44,490 nt of DNA from Nitrospirota bacterium. Lineage in GTDB: Bacteria; Nitrospirota; 9FT-COMBO-42-15; HDB-SIOI813. The position numbers were made by a program, and so were the translations under genes. Shown in pieces: positions 27,220 through 38,146 of the stretch. Position 1 is the stretch's first letter. Every line of letters starts with the position of its first letter. Where the stretch lies: NCBI GenBank assembly GCA_020846775.1, contig JADLDG010000053.1:1-44490 (forward strand), read 5' to 3'. The notes under the pieces were generated by a model. That model was given only the letters and a program-made list of their open reading frames with translations, searched no databases and was not told the origin of the DNA.

Positions 27220-27774
27220 TTAACTGATTGAATACTTGGACATACCTTCTTTATACAGATCACCACCATGTACATCATTTATGACAATGACAGGAAAGTC
27301 TTCGACTTCAATCCGGCGGACAGCTTCAGTGCCCAAATCATCAAAAGCTATTATTTCTGCTTTCTTGATCCTCTTCGAAAGAAGTGCAGCTACACCTCCA
27401 ATAGCAGCAAAGTAAACACACTTGTGCTTATGCATCGCCTCTATAACTTCTTTTCCTCTTCCGCCCTTGCCTATCATACCTTTCAGGCCATGTTCTATAA
27501 GATAAGGGGAGTACGGGTCCATTCTCCCACTCGTCGTAGGCCCGGCAGAACCTATAGGCATTCCGGGCCTGGCTGGTGTGGGACCGACAAAATAAATTAC
27601 CTGTCCTCTGAGATCGAAGGGAAGTTTATCTCCATCCTTTATCATCTGTACAAGCCTCTTATGTGCTGCGTCCCTGGCAGTATACAGTACCCCGCTTATC
27701 TCTATCCTGTCACCCGCCTTCAGGCTGGCTATGACATCCTCCGTCAAAGGTGTCGTCATTTTTTTTACCGACAT
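27220..27774 (-). CDS. Class I (Fe-S) fumarate hydratase, beta subunit
   Basis: The 184-aa C-terminal-type subunit of a two-subunit fumarase. It has LKAGDRIEISGVLYTARDAAHKRL at the N-terminus, VGPTPARPGMPIGSAGPTTSGRMD in the middle and GKGGRG plus AIGGVAALL later, all family hallmarks. It works with the alpha subunit 14 nt upstream. L-tartrate dehydratase (TtdB) is a close relative, but linkage to malate dehydrogenase supports fumarase. Reaction: fumarate and water to L-malate, reversible. Confidence 0.9.
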   Translation of the reverse strand: MSVKKMTTPLTEDVIASLKAGDRIEISGVLYTARDAAHKRLVQMIKDGDKLPFDLRGQVIYFVGPTPARPGMPIGSAGPTTSGRMDPYSPYLIEHGLKGMIGKGGRGKEVIEAMHKHKCVYFAAIGGVAALLSKRIKKAEIIAFDDLGTEAVRRIEVEDFPVIVINDVHGGDLYKEGMSKYSIS

Positions 27775-27788
27775 AATATTTTTTTCTC

Positions 27789-28634
27789 CTAAATCACTAT
27801 ACTCTTATGCCTGCTTGAATGACATCCTATGTTCACTGCAACCGGCAGACTCGCAATATGGCAGGGATGAACTTCAACATGTACGGCAAGGGCGGTAGTA
27901 TTGCCTCCAAGACCGACCGGGCCAATTCCAATCTGATTTATCTTCTTTAGAAGTTCTTGTTCCAGGGAGGCAACATCCATTCTCGCATTGGGTTGTCCCA
28001 CCGGTCTCAGCAAGGCCTTTTTAGCAATCATAGCCGCCTTCTCAAAATCACCGCCTATTCCGACGCCCACTACTACAGGTGGACACGGATTTGCGCCTGC
28101 ATTCCTGACAGAATCTACAACAAACTGCTTGACACCTTCTATTCCATCAGCAGGACGAAGCATTTTTAGAGATGCCATATTCTCACACCCGCCGCCGGCA
28201 ATATCCAGTTTAATACTGATATTCTCACCCGCAACTATTTCAGTATGTATAATGGCCGGGGTATTGTCAGTTGTATTTCTCCTGTTAAATACAGGTTCTT
28301 CGACAACAGATTTTCTCAGATAGCCCTTGCTGTATCCCTGTCTCACACCTTCATTTACGGCATCACTCAGGAGCCCTCCGGCAATAGAGACATCCTGACC
28401 AAACTCAATGAAAAAAACAGCCAGACCAGTATCCTGACAGAGAGGCATAGACTCCTTAGCCGCAATCTCGGAATTTTGCATAATCTGTCTCAGCACCTCC
28501 TGCCCGAGTGGTGATTTTTCCGTATCAATAGCCTTCTCGTATGCAGCCGTAACATCCGCGCTGAGGTTGAAATTTGCATCCATGCACATTTCCCTGACCT
28601 TATCTACTATGTCGTTGAAATGAACTCGCCTCAT
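27789..28634 (-). CDS. Class I (Fe-S) fumarate hydratase, alpha subunit
   Basis: The 281-aa subunit carrying the oxygen-sensitive 4Fe-4S cluster. C66 (LCQDTG), C184 (NPCPPVVVG) and C271 (NIGCHSS) have the spacing expected for the three cluster ligands; this assignment is by comparison from memory. [13 protein letters not shown] around 147-159 is conserved. The start overlaps the mdh stop by 4 nt (ATGA). TtdA-type tartrate dehydratase cannot be excluded by sequence alone, but the mdh context favours fumarase. Confidence 0.9.
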
Positions 28635-29578
28635 TTTAGAATTTCCTTAAGCTCCTCGACCCCGCTTTTGATCATGTTTGCAGATTTGATAAAGGCGGTC
28701 TCCTCATCATCCTTAAACTTTACTTCAACAATCTCCTCAATCCCAGTTCTACCAAGCTTTACAGGCACCCCTGTAAATATTCCTTTCATCCCATACTCTC
28801 CCTCAAGGTATGCCGCACAAGGCAAAATCTTTTTCCTGTCAAGGAGAATTGCCTCAACCATTTCTACGATGGAAGCAGCAGGGGCGACATATGCGCTTCC
28901 TGTCTTGAGTAGTTCAACTATTTCACCGCCTCCAAACCTGGTACGCTCAACCATATCATCAATCCGTGACTTTGGGAGCAATTCAGTTATTGGAATGCCC
29001 GCCACTGTGGAAAACCTCGCAAGCGGGACCATAAGATCACCATGCCCTCCAAGAACAAAGGCATGAACATTATCCGCAGACACCTTAAGTTCAGATGAAA
29101 TAAAGCACTTAAAGCGTGCAGAATCAAGCACTCCGCCCATTCCTATTACACGATGCTTTGGAAAACCCGAAACAGTGTAGGAAACCCATGTCATCAGGTC
29201 CATGGGATTGGTCACTACAATAAGTATGGAGTCTGGAGACCGCTTGGCCGTCTCTAAAGTTACTCCCTTTACGATACCCGCATTCTTCTCGAGAAGGTCT
29301 CTTCGGCTCATTCCAGGTTTTCTCGCAAGTCCTGCAGTAATAACCACTATGTCAGATGCAGAAGTATCGTCATAATTATTGGTTCCGGTAATGTTAACAT
29401 CCGAGCTGCTCAATGATGCGGATTCAAGGATATCAAGCGCCTTACCCTGGGGAATTCCTTCGACAATGTCAATTAATACAACATCACCGAGTGATTTTTC
29501 CATTATCCTTTGCGCTGCAGATGCTCCAACATTACCTGAGCCAATAATTGTTATTTTATTACGTCCAGCCACTTTCAC
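28631..29578 (-). CDS. mdh: Malate dehydrogenase
   Basis: NAD-dependent LDH/MDH superfamily enzyme, 315 aa. Nucleotide loop GSGNVG (13-18), D37 at the end of the second strand (NAD preference), and ARKPGMSR with R86, the residue that marks malate specificity. VTNPMD (122-127), LDSARF (151-156) and catalytic H179 in LGGHGD follow. It sits between Re-citrate synthase (43 nt upstream) and fumarase alpha (4-nt overlap). Together they interconvert fumarate, malate, oxaloacetate and citrate. Confidence 0.94.
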
Positions 29579-29621: not shown

Positions 29622-31490
29622 CTAAATCATCTCTCCTTCAACACCGCCCTTTTCTCCGGAAGATTCAACACCAGCAACCATCCTCCTGTCTATTTTTACC
29701 ACATCTTCAAATCTCAGATCCACACCGAACACGCCTTTAATCTCACTGTTCTCATTTCTGACAGGTGTAGAGATGGTCACACATAGTGCATCTGTTACAA
29801 GAGATTTATAGAAGTCTGTAACAATGGTCTTTCCGCTCCTTACAGGTTCAATAAACCATGGCCTGTTGGAAAAGTCCTGTCTCATGTCAAACTTCTCGTA
29901 TTTGGCCCTGTCAATCACCTGAGTAATATTTTTAGTCAATATCTTTCCGTTGAGGTCAACTACATATGCAAACTGAATAAATGGATTCTCATCCACCAGT
30001 TTCTGCATCTTCTCTTCCATCCCGGCTGCGTTCAGGACTCTGAATGATTCATCATCAACTAATTCTTCAACCAGTGATGCCACAATCTCTTCAGCACGCT
30101 TTTTTAAGCGGTCCAGGTCAGAACCAAAATATTCAGGCAAATACTTTTTTGACTGGGCATACATCTCATCCGAGGAAATCGCTGTCAGCCTTCCGGCCTC
30201 ATACTGTTCCATAACCCACTTAAATATCTTGGCAACTCCCGGGTGTTTCTTATCTACCTGCTCTTTATGATCTATCCCGAGATGTCCGTTTACCCAATAA
30301 GCTATTCCTGCGATTCCTGATTTATCAGTAATTGTAATCCCCATAGGCCTCTTGAGCAATTTAACGGTATCAAATATATTGTATATTTCCTCGTTCTTCA
30401 AAGCCCCATCTGCATGGATGCCGGCGCTCGTATTATTAAAATCTGCACCTACAAACGGATAGTTTGCAGGGACCAGTACTCCAAGCTCTTTCCTGAAATA
30501 ATCAGCCAGGTCAGTTATCACTGTCGTATCTACACCATTAGTGTCACCACGCAGGGCGATATACTCCATAATAAGAGACTCTACAGGGGTATTCCCTGTC
30601 CTCTCGCCAAATCCAAGCATAACACCATTAGCCGAGCAACATCCGTATAACCATGCTGTCGTAGCATTAATAAGCGCCTTGTGGAAATCATTGTGGCCAT
30701 GCCATTCAAGTTGTTGTGAAGGGACCCCTCCATAGTGGACAAGGCCATAGATCAATTCCGGGATACCGCGCGGGGTAGACGCACCTATATAAGGAACGCC
30801 ATAGCCCATCGTATCACATGCCCTTATCTTAACAGGGATTCCGCTCTGCTCAGACAACGTCATCAGCTTTTGAACGAACGGGATAACAAAATTATAAAAG
30901 TCGGCACGCGTAATGTCTTCAAGATGGCATCTGGGTATGATTCCGGATTCCAGCGCCTTACTGACTATATCCAGATACTTATTAGCGGCCTCTCTTCTGG
31001 TCATCCCAAGCTTAAGGAAAATATGATAATCAGAACATGAAGTCAGTATTCCGGTCTCCTTCAGACCTGCCTCTTTGACTATCTGAAAATCCTCCTTAAC
31101 GGCCCTGATCCATCCTGTTATCTCTGGATACCTGTAGCCCCGTTCCTGACACTTCTCGACCGCCTCCCTGTCTTTTTTGTTGTAAAGGAAAAACTCACAT
31201 TGTCTTAACACCCCGTTAGGTCCGCTAAGTTTGTGAAACATGTCGTATATGTCTACTATCTGCTTTACGCTGTATGGAGGTCTCGACTGCTGTCCGTCAC
31301 GAAAAGTCGTATCACTTATCCAGAACTCCTGCGGTGTAAATTGAGGAACAATGCGGTGATTAAACGGGATCTTAGGCACCTCACTGTAAGGGAAGAATTC
31401 TCTGAAAAGGTTTGGCTCTTTAACCTCCTGAATCTCATAATGATATGCTGACCTCGCGAGGAGATTTTTTTCTTTGACCAGACCGGACAT
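29622..31490 (-). CDS. Probable Re-citrate synthase (HMGL-type acyltransferase) with C-terminal Cache-like domain
   Basis: The 622-aa protein is longer than a bare Re-citrate synthase (about 450 aa). The TIM-barrel domain starts [15 protein letters not shown] (60-74), very like Clostridium kluyveri Re-citrate synthase as I recall it. It has HGHND (264-268) with metal-ligand histidines and [11 protein letters not shown] (295-305); GIHADG (358-363) follows the barrel. Residues about 480-600 form a separate domain ([21 protein letters not shown], then [12 protein letters not shown]) resembling a Cache/PDC small-molecule sensor. Adjacent mdh would supply oxaloacetate, fitting citrate synthesis. 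Alternatives are isopropylmalate, homocitrate or citramalate synthase. Some databases label relatives oddly (for example histone methyltransferase); nothing supports that here. Confidence 0.75.
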
Positions 31491-32440: not shown

Positions 32441-33277
32441 TCACCTCTGACATAACGCAGTAAAGCCGCGTTGGTCGGCCATTATATCCAGATTCAGGGT
32501 GGCTACATCCTCAATCTCCATATCGAGATCATCCGGTCTTTTTTTGTCACTTCGGCATCCGGTAAAAACAGTCTTGAGATATGTTTTGCATTCTTCACAA
32601 CTCACGGCCCGCACGCACTGATCCCTGACAGAATCTCCAACGATGAGGCCAAAACGCTCCGGACTCGAATTCCCGCAGGAAGGACAACCGGTCATGGGGT
32701 AATGCCACCTGTACGCGCAAAAACAGCAGGAAAGCAGGCGCTGTTCATATGTCTCGTCCTCAGGGGTAAAGACAATGGCCATAGCCGGTGGAGACGAACA
32801 TAACGGACATATCCCCTTCCCGGAGCTTATTTCAAGATTCAGTTTTTTCAATGTATTTTCAAAAGATGGTTTGAGTATCCATTTGAGCAGTGCATTTTTG
32901 AATTTATCTTCTTTTAAGAGTCCCTGGCTTATAAACTCCTGCACGGCATCCGATGATGAACCGGAACACCCTATTTCTTTACCCCCTCCCATGCATGTCT
33001 CAAACAGCTTAAATACGTCCTTAGCAATGTTTATGCTGCTGGTAAGTTTAAGCTCACTTATTCTTGTTGTGTCGAGAAGATGTATTCTTTCTGACTCTCC
33101 TTTTGGCGATAAAGCTGCAGAAGTCTCAAACAAGGCAGACAGGTCATCCGGAGAATATGCACTCCAGATATCAAGAAGTCCCTTGTAGAAAACAACCATA
33201 TCATGGATAAAGGGATAATGCCTTACCCTATCGTCCAGGTATAACTTGAATTTAGTATATTCTTTTATCTTTTGCAT
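32441..33277 (-). CDS. fdhE: Formate dehydrogenase accessory protein FdhE
   Basis: FdhE helps activate molybdenum- or tungsten-dependent formate dehydrogenase in the cytoplasm, probably binding iron through its cysteines. The 278-aa protein has four CxxC pairs: C157/C160, C184/C187 (as CCFC), C198/C201 and C227/C230. FCAYRWHYPMTGCPSCG is a strong family signature. No formate dehydrogenase gene is in the window, so its client must be encoded elsewhere. It is divergent from lptF with a 48-nt gap. Confidence 0.9.
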   Translation of the reverse strand: MQKIKEYTKFKLYLDDRVRHYPFIHDMVVFYKGLLDIWSAYSPDDLSALFETSAALSPKGESERIHLLDTTRISELKLTSSINIAKDVFKLFETCMGGGKEIGCSGSSSDAVQEFISQGLLKEDKFKNALLKWILKPSFENTLKKLNLEISSGKGICPLCSSPPAMAIVFTPEDETYEQRLLSCCFCAYRWHYPMTGCPSCGNSSPERFGLIVGDSVRDQCVRAVSCEECKTYLKTVFTGCRSDKKRPDDLDMEIEDVATLNLDIMADQRGFTALCQR

Positions 33278-34462: not shown

Positions 34463-35547
34463 AGATAATCACACGATATATCTCTTCCGAATTACTAAAG
34501 TTGTTAATTCTCATTGCAGCGGCATTCACAGTACTGTACCTCCTCATTGATATCTTTGAAAATATTGGCGATTTCACAAAGGCCCATGCAGGCTTCATGA
34601 CAATTGCGGGTTACTTTCTTTTCCGACTCCCGCAGGCAATTTATTTCACAATACCTCTTTCACTCCTCTTTGCATCATTTTTGAATCTTGGTCTCTTTAC
34701 AAAATACAATGAGCTCACTGCCCTGCGTTCAGGCGGACTGAGTATACACAATATTACACTGCCTGTCTTGGCGATAACACTGATTTCTTCTGCCGGTGCA
34801 TTCTTATTAAATAACTCTGTCATACCTGTAAGCAATAAGATGGCAGAGGATATACGTATGACGATCGAGGGAAAACCAAGGGAAATGTTTTTTAAAGAAG
34901 ACAGCCTGTGGATAAAGGCTGACGACTATACAATATACAATGCAAGCTTTATAGACCCGGACAAGAAGATCATGGGGCGGATAAATATATATTATCTGAC
35001 ACCTGACTTTAATATAAGGGAAAGCATCTCAGCTAATGGCGCGGTCTCCATAGATAATCAGTGGTTTCTTAAATCAGGTGTAAGGAGGCTGTTTGATCCT
35101 GATAACAGAAATATAACACTCATCGAGTTTGATACCCTTCCATTGGAATTCCCTATAAGACAAGATGATTTCAGTCATGTAACTGTCCAGGCATCTGAAA
35201 CAAGCTATACAACCCTTAAAAAATATATAGACACAATCAAAAGAGAAGGCTATGAGGTTAAAAGACTTACAGTTGATTTATATGCCAAGACATCGTTCCC
35301 ATTTTCAGGGTTTATTCTATCAGTCTTCGGAATGACCTTTGGTTTCAGTATAAAGAAGAAGTTTGGCGGACTTGCCAGAGGCATAGGGATGTGTATTCTT
35401 ACCGGTGTACTCTATTGGACCACCTACTCTCTGTCTTTAAATATGGGATACGCAGGCAGCATAAACCCAATTCTTTCGTCCTGGCTTGCAAATCTTGTGT
35501 TTAGCGTTATAGGCGGATTAATTTACTTCAGGGCTATGAAACTATAG
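34459..35547 (+). CDS. lptG: LPS export ABC transporter permease LptG
   Basis: The second permease, 362 aa, of the LptB2FG extractor. It starts MKIITRYISSELLK, has N-terminal helices (about 13-33 and further segments to 120), the coupling motif YNELTALRSGGLSIH, a periplasmic domain, and C-terminal helices with SIKKKFGGLARGIGMCILTGVLYW. It converges with the GGDEF/EAL gene; the two overlap by 14 bp, leaving no dedicated terminator. Confidence 0.9.
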   Translation: MKIITRYISSELLKLLILIAAAFTVLYLLIDIFENIGDFTKAHAGFMTIAGYFLFRLPQAIYFTIPLSLLFASFLNLGLFTKYNELTALRSGGLSIHNITLPVLAITLISSAGAFLLNNSVIPVSNKMAEDIRMTIEGKPREMFFKEDSLWIKADDYTIYNASFIDPDKKIMGRINIYYLTPDFNIRESISANGAVSIDNQWFLKSGVRRLFDPDNRNITLIEFDTLPLEFPIRQDDFSHVTVQASETSYTTLKKYIDTIKREGYEVKRLTVDLYAKTSFPFSGFILSVFGMTFGFSIKKKFGGLARGIGMCILTGVLYWTTYSLSLNMGYAGSINPILSSWLANLVFSVIGGLIYFRAMKL

Positions 35548-38146
35548 TACTGACCTCGAGTTTTTTCCCGGATCTGAGCATCTCTCTAAATGAATCAAAT
35601 GGCACCGGTCTGCTGAAATAATAGCCCTGCATCTCCTCGCACCCATGTCCAGCAAGGAATAGGAGCTCCTCTAACTTCTCTACGCCTTCTGCTACTGACC
35701 TCAACTTTAGTGTATGGGTCATCGCTAATATTGTCTCAACAATGGATGCACCATCAGGATTAGTTGTAATGTCCATTACAAAGGAGCGGTCTATTTTTAA
35801 CACATCAATAGGAAACTTTTTCAGGTAACTGAGAGAGGAATAACCAGTACCAAAATCATCTATTGAAAGCCTGATTCCTCTGTCTTTTATCGCAAAAAGC
35901 TTCCTGACAAGTTTTTCCTCATTCTTCATCAGGATGCTCTCTGTCAGTTCCAATTCAACATACACAGGGTCGAGGCAGTTCTCGTCCAGTGCAGAGCCAA
36001 TCAATTCAATAAGGTTTTCATTTGCAAACTGCCGTGATGAAAGATTTGAAGACATAACAAGATTAGAAAACCCATCGTCTATCAGCTTTTTCATATCTCT
36101 GCAGGAAGTACGAAGTACCCATTCACCTATCGGAAGGATAATACCGGTCTCCTCTGCAATATAGATAAATTCTGCCGGTGATATCATGTACCCGTCTTTC
36201 TGCCATCTAATCAATGCCTCCATTCCACAGATCTCTCCTGTAGACAAGTCAATTTTGGGCTGGTAATAGAGAACAAATTCCTGCTGTTCCAACGCCTTTC
36301 TGAGATTAGTTTCCATACTCAGTCTGTTCTTAACCCTCACGTTCATTTCTTCGGCAAAGAACTGGTAGTTATTTCCTCCCTGCGCCTTACAATGATACAT
36401 GGCAGTATCAGCCTTCATCAATAGATGGTCAGCCGTCTCACCATCTGAAGGAAACATAGAGATCCCGATACTTGCAGCAACAAACAGCTCATTCTCATTG
36501 ATCTTCACAGAGGCAGTAAACAAGTCCAGGATGTTCTTTGCCACTGTAATAATATCATTTGTGTCAGTCACATCGTTTACCAGAATAACAAACTCGTCCC
36601 CGCCCAGCCTTGCAACCGTATCATAATTTCTAACGCTATTAGCAAGTCGTTCAGCAATCTGTTTCAGGAGGATATCTCCTGAGCTGTGTCCCAGGGTGTC
36701 ATTTATTACCTTAAACCTGTCAATGTCAAGCAGCATAACGGCATACAACATCTTTTTCCTTTTCTGATAGGCCGTGGCCTGACCAAGCCTGTCATTAAGG
36801 AGATTTTTGTTGGCTAAGCCAGTCAGGGAATCGTGGGTTGCCTGATCCATCAGCTGCTCTTCAAACAGTTTTCTATCTGTTATATCATGAACCACAACAC
36901 ACATAGTATTACTATCGCACTGTGAGAGATTACTTGCGGATAATTCAGCATACACTACGGAACCATCTTTATGTCTCAGCCTGAGATCCCTCTTCTCTTT
37001 ATCTATACGTTCTATCTCAAGAGATGAAGTTTCAATGTCCTCTGAAACTATGTCATATAATGACATTTTCAATATTTCATCACTATTGTAGCCAAGAAGG
37101 CTTTTAAATGCCGTGTTGCCTTCAAGTATCATCTTGTCTGCACAATTAACAATAATAATACCTTCATTTGCCTGCTCTATGACAGCCCTGTATTTCGCCT
37201 CTGATTCTTTCCCCATCCGTCGAGAAAGGACCAGTTTTTTAAAAAGCCGGTTATTTATCAAGGCAAATACAAGTACTGCAAGAACAAACCAGAGGATAAA
37301 ATATGTAATTGTATCAACACCCTGTCTGTATATTTTCCTTTGGGATTCAACCTTTGTAACGAATGCATTGTTGCCATAAATGTCTTTTACAGTGGCGTAG
37401 CCAGCCACTAAGTCCCTGCTTAATGGAGATACCAGGACAGGGGCCGCATCATCAATCTTTTGAATTGCGATCTTAATATCATCAGGTATTATCTTATCGT
37501 CTACTCTAATAACATTAATGGACAATTTTGTCTGTTGGGCTATCTGTTCGATCTCTTTAGAATCAAGATAACGACCTATAATAAGCGCTCCGCGAATCGG
37601 CCCTTTGAATTCATTCGTTAGAACCGGTCTTGAGGAGACAAGCAGGATGCCTTCAGGAAGCCGCATAATACCTTTTATCGTACTCTCAATGCGAGGATGT
37701 CTCACGAGAGGGCTTTCCGGAGTAAGGTGCTTTAGGAAGCTCTCAGAGACAGGAACCGGAATTTCTCTGATGAGATCAAACCCCCTTTTATAAACAACTT
37801 CTCCACTGTTTCTTATATAAACCAGGATATTAAGATGCAATTGGGGGAAGACTGCATCAGGAAGGTTGTCTTTGAGAAATGCCTTGTTGCCATCGTTAAT
37901 AAACTTATAACTCTCATCCCATCCGGCATAATCACCATTTACAGTACTTAAGTGTGCAAGTTCACCGTTGAGAGCATTAAGCGTCCGTTCTACATTCTTC
38001 TCCATGTTGTTATGCTCGATTTCGACAAAACTGTCAAGTAAGATCAGCCTGGATGCAATCAAAAGGACAATAAATAATGCAGACAGGGAAGTCCCCACAA
38101 TTACAAACATTTTAAACTGCCGATAATCAAACAATTTCTTCATCAT
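35534..38146 (-). CDS. Membrane CHASE4-like/PAS/GGDEF/EAL cyclic-di-GMP enzyme
   Basis: An 870-aa signalling protein. TM1 is at about 12-35 and a periplasmic CHASE4-like sensor at about 40-275 (VNGDYAGWDESYKF near 69-82 is typical). TM2 is at about 280-298, a PAS domain at about 315-425, a GGDEF domain at about 435-600 with intact GGDEF 515-519, and an EAL domain at about 610-862 with EALIRW from E643. An RxxD inhibitory site (R506-D509) lies five residues before GGDEF. DDFGTGYSSL is present in the EAL domain. Both synthase and phosphodiesterase activities look possible. The neighbours are not pilus genes, but type IV pili elsewhere in the window are frequent c-di-GMP targets. The start is ATG 38146 or 38143. 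Confidence 0.9.
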   Translation of the reverse strand: MMKKLFDYRQFKMFVIVGTSLSALFIVLLIASRLILLDSFVEIEHNNMEKNVERTLNALNGELAHLSTVNGDYAGWDESYKFINDGNKAFLKDNLPDAVFPQLHLNILVYIRNSGEVVYKRGFDLIREIPVPVSESFLKHLTPESPLVRHPRIESTIKGIMRLPEGILLVSSRPVLTNEFKGPIRGALIIGRYLDSKEIEQIAQQTKLSINVIRVDDKIIPDDIKIAIQKIDDAAPVLVSPLSRDLVAGYATVKDIYGNNAFVTKVESQRKIYRQGVDTITYFILWFVLAVLVFALINNRLFKKLVLSRRMGKESEAKYRAVIEQANEGIIIVNCADKMILEGNTAFKSLLGYNSDEILKMSLYDIVSEDIETSSLEIERIDKEKRDLRLRHKDGSVVYAELSASNLSQCDSNTMCVVVHDITDRKLFEEQLMDQATHDSLTGLANKNLLNDRLGQATAYQKRKKMLYAVMLLDIDRFKVINDTLGHSSGDILLKQIAERLANSVRNYDTVARLGGDEFVILVNDVTDTNDIITVAKNILDLFTASVKINENELFVAASIGISMFPSDGETADHLLMKADTAMYHCKAQGGNNYQFFAEEMNVRVKNRLSMETNLRKALEQQEFVLYYQPKIDLSTGEICGMEALIRWQKDGYMISPAEFIYIAEETGIILPIGEWVLRTSCRDMKKLIDDGFSNLVMSSNLSSRQFANENLIELIGSALDENCLDPVYVELELTESILMKNEEKLVRKLFAIKDRGIRLSIDDFGTGYSSLSYLKKFPIDVLKIDRSFVMDITTNPDGASIVETILAMTHTLKLRSVAEGVEKLEELLFLAGHGCEEMQGYYFSRPVPFDSFREMLRSGKKLEVSTIVS

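Follow-up and report, generated by a model that had tools for sequence, protein, structure and literature searches.

The gene at positions 29622..31490 (minus strand) of the window, the whole stretch of 44,490 nt analyzed here, raises the question of why a metabolic enzyme should carry a sensor module of a kind known from membrane receptors. It encodes a protein of 622 amino acids that, judged from its open reading frame, Pfam domains and homologs, represents a predicted Re-citrate synthase with a Cache module fused to its C-terminal end. The reading frame begins with ATG, contains no internal stop codons and is intact. Many anaerobes enter the TCA branch through Re-citrate synthase. The enzyme family is already known, and the attached Cache sensor appears undiscussed; our literature search returned nothing relevant on a Cache domain and a citrate synthase together, and in the literature searched we found no description of the control of Re-citrate synthase.

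Domain architecture of the fused protein

The catalytic part is an HMGL-like TIM barrel (residues 58–330; 30501..31319, minus strand; Pfam PF00682, E = 1.2e-27), which according to Pfam and Foldseek is a fold other than that of Si-citrate synthase. Its RDG (R64-D65) and HGH (H264/H266) motifs, which we take to be the metal-ligand motifs of the barrel superfamily, are invariant across 66 homologs. Next follows a post-barrel region (residues 331–455; 30126..30500, minus strand), delineated from the domain layout and from comparison with unfused relatives, which end at its far edge, at residue ~458–470. The single Cache/PDC module (residues ~458–600; 29691..30119, minus strand) was recognized by Pfam, profile search, AlphaFold and Foldseek and is predicted to consist of a long N-terminal helix (458–478) and a PAS-like sheet. 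The C-terminal tail (residues 604–622; 29625..29681, minus strand) appears disordered (pLDDT <50). The AlphaFold predictions, based on a 66-row alignment, reached a pLDDT of 88 over the full length and of 83 over residues 440–622, with moderate pTM values of 0.72 and 0.75. In Foldseek, the full protein matched homocitrate, isopropylmalate and citramalate synthases.

The first-pass annotation, made from the sequence alone, had suggested a Cache/PDC-like domain behind the TIM barrel and proposed comparing its predicted structure with Cache folds. Pfam detected dCache_1 (PF02743) at residues 474–596 (53.5 bits against a gathering cut-off of 45, E = 3.1e-14) and MCP-like_PDC_1 (PF22673) at residues 529–596 (46.2 bits, cut-off 27). 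A profile of the C-terminal domain from 66 homologs had its best PDB matches in Tlp3 (6.6e-11), KinD (7.3e-10) and PctA (1.9e-7). The structure predicted for residues 440–622 likewise matched Cache domains in Foldseek, with KinD in first place (E = 7e-9; its pyruvate complex included) and Tlp3, YkuI, PctA/PctC, Mlp24, DctB and WalK as further top matches. The suggested domain is thereby confirmed. The Pfam match covers positions 33–154 of the 240 in the dCache_1 profile, hence the first of two modules only, and by this coverage the second tandem module of a double Cache is absent from the window protein. The domain is a single module of the dCache_1 type, less than a full dCache.

The extracellular setting between transmembrane segments that is typical, if not universal, for Cache domains was not found here: the window protein has no transmembrane segment. 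Its hydropathy peaks at 1.08 over 19 residues, and because every segment of that length stays at or below this value, there is no sign of export or of a membrane anchor. The earlier view of a cytoplasmic enzyme was therefore upheld. In a census of Cache domains, 78% of the members were confidently extracellular, two small families were chiefly intracellular, and the outputs listed were signaling domains (PMC4822843). PctA, Tlp3 (both dCache_1AA) and KinD share the fold and most ligand contacts (R, W, aromatic, Y, D) with the module described here, but theirs are extracytoplasmic domains of membrane receptors, whereas this one is a single module on a soluble metabolic enzyme. YkuI, with an EAL domain and a C-terminal intracellular Cache (PDB 2bas/2w27), is soluble like the window protein, but it is a c-di-GMP signaling protein (PMC4822843).

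Enzyme identity and genomic context

We are highly confident that the enzyme is a citrate synthase; judged by its relatives, it would be of the Re type. Unfused relatives from anammox bacteria and other Planctomycetota share 61–63% identity over the barrel. The Kuenenia copy (L071) adjoins succinate-CoA ligase genes (SucCD), and the Kuenenia gene KSMBR1_RS10820, near succinate-CoA ligase, was posited to encode a Re-citrate synthase by isotope tracing and shares 55% identity with the enzyme proven in Clostridium kluyveri (PMC8027424). Both belong to the same catalytic family as the window protein, whose homology to the C. kluyveri enzyme runs via the anammox copies (63%). In contrast to the window protein, the anammox form stops at residue ~458–470 and lacks the Cache module.

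The Re-citrate synthase of Syntrophus aciditrophicus (SYN_02536) has been purified (Kim et al. 2013, cited in PMC12016533). This enzyme belongs to the same family as the window protein. Fused Syntrophales homologs of ~629 residues have computed masses of ~71.0–72.1 kDa, or 72.2–73.3 kDa with a Strep-tag, and the unfused 458-residue form comes to ~52 kDa by calculation. The tagged Syntrophus subunit is reportedly 72,892 Da (72.9 kDa) in mass. Because this figure fits the fused and not the unfused form, the proven Syntrophus enzyme probably carries the Cache module and shares the fused architecture.

The gene arrangement points in the same direction. Next downstream, across a gap of 43 bp, lies a malate dehydrogenase gene (28631..29578, minus strand; TIGR01763 above cut-off), the product of which would supply oxaloacetate. 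It overlaps by 4 bp with the gene for the class I fumarase alpha subunit (27789..28634, minus strand; NF004885 above cut-off), followed by that for the beta subunit (27220..27774, minus strand; NF005310 above cut-off). The fused synthase, mdh, fumA and fumB thus form an operon-like run, all on the minus strand. Among relatives, aconitase and isocitrate dehydrogenase genes follow the synthase gene at loci L033, L034, L038, L039 and L047, and a malate dehydrogenase gene follows it at L046 (plus aconitase), L047 and L004. Homology and TCA-gene context together bear out the initial assignment as Re-citrate synthase. Elsewhere in the window, a large GGDEF/EAL-type signaling protein is encoded at 35534–38146 (minus strand), its translation displaying an N-terminal sensor between membrane helices, and an FdhE-like zinc-ribbon protein at 32441–33277 (minus strand; 57.9 against an NCBIfam FdhE cut-off of 187.65).

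A full-length Si-citrate synthase was not found in the window's genome. The lone citrate-synthase-family match there falls in an ATP-citrate lyase subunit of 613 residues, of which it makes up the C-terminal half; this leaves the window gene as the sole citrate synthase candidate found. Aconitase is present, and monomeric isocitrate dehydrogenase is represented by terminal pieces only, near contig ends (C6, C23, C34, C35); these pieces suggest two near-identical copies at which the assembly is broken. The occurrence of the ATP-citrate lyase large subunit (G000:C78:7981-8547; L084) in the genome raises the possibility of a futile cycle in need of control. Among 41 Nitrospirota genomes, no anticorrelation with Si-citrate synthase was found: a full-length Si-type match occurred in 7 of the 18 genomes with the gene versus 12 of the 23 without it, so the gene is not always the sole candidate in its carriers.

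Low-scoring top matches in NCBIfam and the PDB link the protein to homocitrate, isopropylmalate and citramalate synthases, and an enzyme of this kind with the Cache module as its end-product sensor would be an alternative. All NCBIfam scores, however, lie far under the curated cut-offs (121.8 versus 462.9 for nifV, and isopropylmalate synthase scores likewise). LeuA and CimA are encoded by separate genes elsewhere in the genome, each with its own LeuA_dimer domain, and are 28–29% identical to the window protein. The genes accompanying the relatives are those of aconitase, isocitrate dehydrogenase, malate dehydrogenase and fumarase, and the nearest characterized kin are Re-citrate synthases. 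On scores, gene context and separate paralogs we rejected these three identities, and consider the alternative very improbable. The invariant R129 was dropped as proof of an oxaloacetate-type substrate, since Arg is also found there in isopropylmalate synthases.

The putative ligand pocket and its proposed regulatory role

To locate the pocket, we aligned the module with solved Cache sensors and checked the PctA numbering against residues named in PMC10104139, PMC11245519 and PMC11237719. R543 (29862..29864, minus strand) aligns with the carboxylate anchor R126 of PctA and with the mutated R131 of KinD, and is Arg in 85 of 89 fused proteins (95%). W545-F546 (29853..29858, minus strand) correspond to PctA W128-Y129 (W in 89/89, F in 88/89). 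Y561 corresponds to PctA Y144 and S563 to the PctA D146 position (29802..29810, minus strand); position 561 is Y in 79/89 and F in 9/89, and position 563 is S throughout (89/89). T572 (29775..29777, minus strand), equivalent to PctA T155, which is a pocket position (PMC11245519), is invariant in the 89 fused proteins, as are W545, S563 and D591. The latter (29718..29720, minus strand; D in 89/89) corresponds to PctA D173; an Asp of this type touches the ligand amino group in amino-acid sensors, where the carboxylate is gripped by the first Tyr together with the Arg and Trp, and the amino group by the Asp together with the second Tyr (PMC11237719). The mean entropy of the pocket-equivalent positions was 0.16 bits versus 1.72 across the Cache domain, a value as low occurring in none of 100,000 random position draws. 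The pocket residues rank with the best-conserved positions in the domain, which over its entire length has a mean identity of 46%.

Five of the six positions of the amino-acid-sensor motif are satisfied (R543, W545, F546, Y561, D591). The first tyrosine (PctA Y121) is replaced by Q538, a position variable among the homologs, and for this reason the module was left out of the dCache_1AA class, from which it further differs by the Ser for D146. This Ser is shared with KinD. In related amine sensors, one motif mismatch sufficed to abolish binding (PMC10104139). The R/W anchors and the alignment of R543 with KinD R131 make a carboxylate a well-supported prediction for the ligand. An amino acid is plausible even though one defining motif position fails; with both Q538 and the Ser at the D146 position as counterpoints, we see this as finely balanced, tilting slightly against.

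Our preferred reading is that of a cytosolic Re-citrate synthase, which would use an isopropylmalate-synthase-type TIM barrel to condense acetyl-CoA and oxaloacetate to citrate, with the C-terminal Cache module serving as a ligand-binding regulatory domain. The pocket would hold a small cytosolic carboxylate via R543/W545 and the amine or hydroxyl side of the ligand via Y561/S563/D591. Binding would alter catalysis in the barrel, and the likeliest form of this control is feedback from an end product of the branch to 2-oxoglutarate and glutamate, for which leucine and LeuA_dimer in isopropylmalate synthase would be the precedent. Taken as a whole, Cache-mediated feedback by a small carboxylate on this enzyme is reasonably probable; domain identity, cytosolic setting, the conserved pocket and the TCA context are its computed support. 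That the module binds a ligand is quite likely, and that it regulates catalysis is likely as well; the ligand would be an amino acid, perhaps one of the glutamate family, or a keto/hydroxy acid.

LeuA and citramalate synthase belong to the same barrel superfamily and share the layout of the window protein, with a barrel, a post-barrel part and then LeuA_dimer, a domain whose role is the binding of the end-product amino acid. In the window protein, an unrelated domain, Cache, occupies this place. LeuA_dimer (PF08502) itself is absent from it by Pfam, which puts the protein outside the LeuA-type family, although it may act alike. The likeness to LeuA-type regulatory domains drawn in the first-pass annotation thus holds for the position behind the post-barrel region, and the allosteric role proposed there has the best support of the readings considered. 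Feedback on the first step toward 2-oxoglutarate and the glutamate family is the economical reading. A tight site would already be saturated by glutamate at its high abundance, which makes glutamine, arginine, proline or a keto acid further candidates. With ATP-citrate lyase in the same genome, unregulated citrate synthesis would waste ATP, an extra reason for control. A counterpoint to regulation is that unfused relatives, ~62–63% identical, apparently function without the Cache module.

The same observation bears on the view that the module serves dimerization or stability, its pocket no longer sensing and the domain aiding oligomer assembly, since unfused homologs do without it. Cache domains often dimerize by their long N-terminal helix, and the LeuA domain in the same position is a dimerization domain as well. 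Conservation, however, is highest in residues that line the pocket of solved relatives, whereas the helix 458–478 is mostly variable, which makes this view improbable. A variant of the regulatory reading, not exclusive of it, has the module sensing a small pyruvate-like 2-oxo or hydroxy carboxylate as a feed-forward or balance signal. KinD is the best structural match, pyruvate complex included, and has both the Arg and the Ser of position 563 in common with the window protein; synthesis and cleavage of citrate would, moreover, need opposite control in a genome with ATP-citrate lyase. But the amino-group contacts D591 (89/89) and Y561 (79/89) are kept, and KinD lacks the Asp, so that we regard this variant as possible but rather doubtful. 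For the preferred regulatory reading, the conserved putative sensor pocket offers a concrete site on the enzyme and narrows the ligands to try to a small set.

Probable intracellular relatives and distribution of the fusion

We searched eight genomes for non-enzyme relatives of the window's Cache module. The closest, at 96 bits, is a chemoreceptor of Fundidesulfovibrio agrisoli (L148:1094-2794, minus strand) with two N-terminal membrane helices, an MCP signaling domain and a cytoplasmic C-terminal Cache. A 377-residue protein of another Nitrospirota genome (G018; L147:1121-2254, plus strand) gave a Cache match of 71 bits. Its Cache is probably cytoplasmic because it is placed ahead of the first membrane helix; about four membrane segments follow. 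The remaining non-enzyme matches were weaker (26–35 bits). Both proteins retain the Y-x-S and the Asp of the pocket, and these two examples hint at an intracellular Cache branch. It is conceivable, if unlikely, that this branch, with the pocket R-x-[WY]-[FY] ... Y-x-S ... [LP]C-[IV]TVS ... D, reads one metabolite of central metabolism, so that metabolism and behavior would share a sensor. The same sensor would then sit on the entry enzyme of the anaerobic TCA branch, on the cytoplasmic end of a chemoreceptor (L148) and on another type of protein (L147).

To follow the fusion itself, 84,980 species were scanned and the best 80 loci, ranked by score, were examined. Most of these have the fused form, and among these best 80 loci the fusion is spread over about ten bacterial phyla: Nitrospirota, Thermodesulfobacteriota, Omnitrophota, Elusimicrobiota, Spirochaetota, Lentisphaerota, Fibrobacterota, Margulisiibacteriota and Auribacterota, together with unplaced Deltaproteobacteria. 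The 80 loci fall short of a census because ranking by score prefers long matches. The presence in more than 80 further loci indicates that the fusion is real, neither chance nor an assembly artifact, and the initial impression of a peculiarity of one enzyme gave way to that of a conserved and widespread architecture.

In a sample of 149 Syntrophales genomes we counted 81 full-length copies with the fusion and no copy that was clearly unfused. The seven strong homologs from 119 Planctomycetota genomes were all without the Cache module. In a tree built from the catalytic part, the unfused sequences are nested in fused groups, except for one distant paralog, and require five state changes, at least two of them forced by well-supported branches. 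This topology, with a root that depends on a long outgroup branch, would suit an old fusion with later losses. Among the fused proteins, divergence of the Cache module tracks that of the catalytic domain (Mantel r 0.74; 0/999 permutations).
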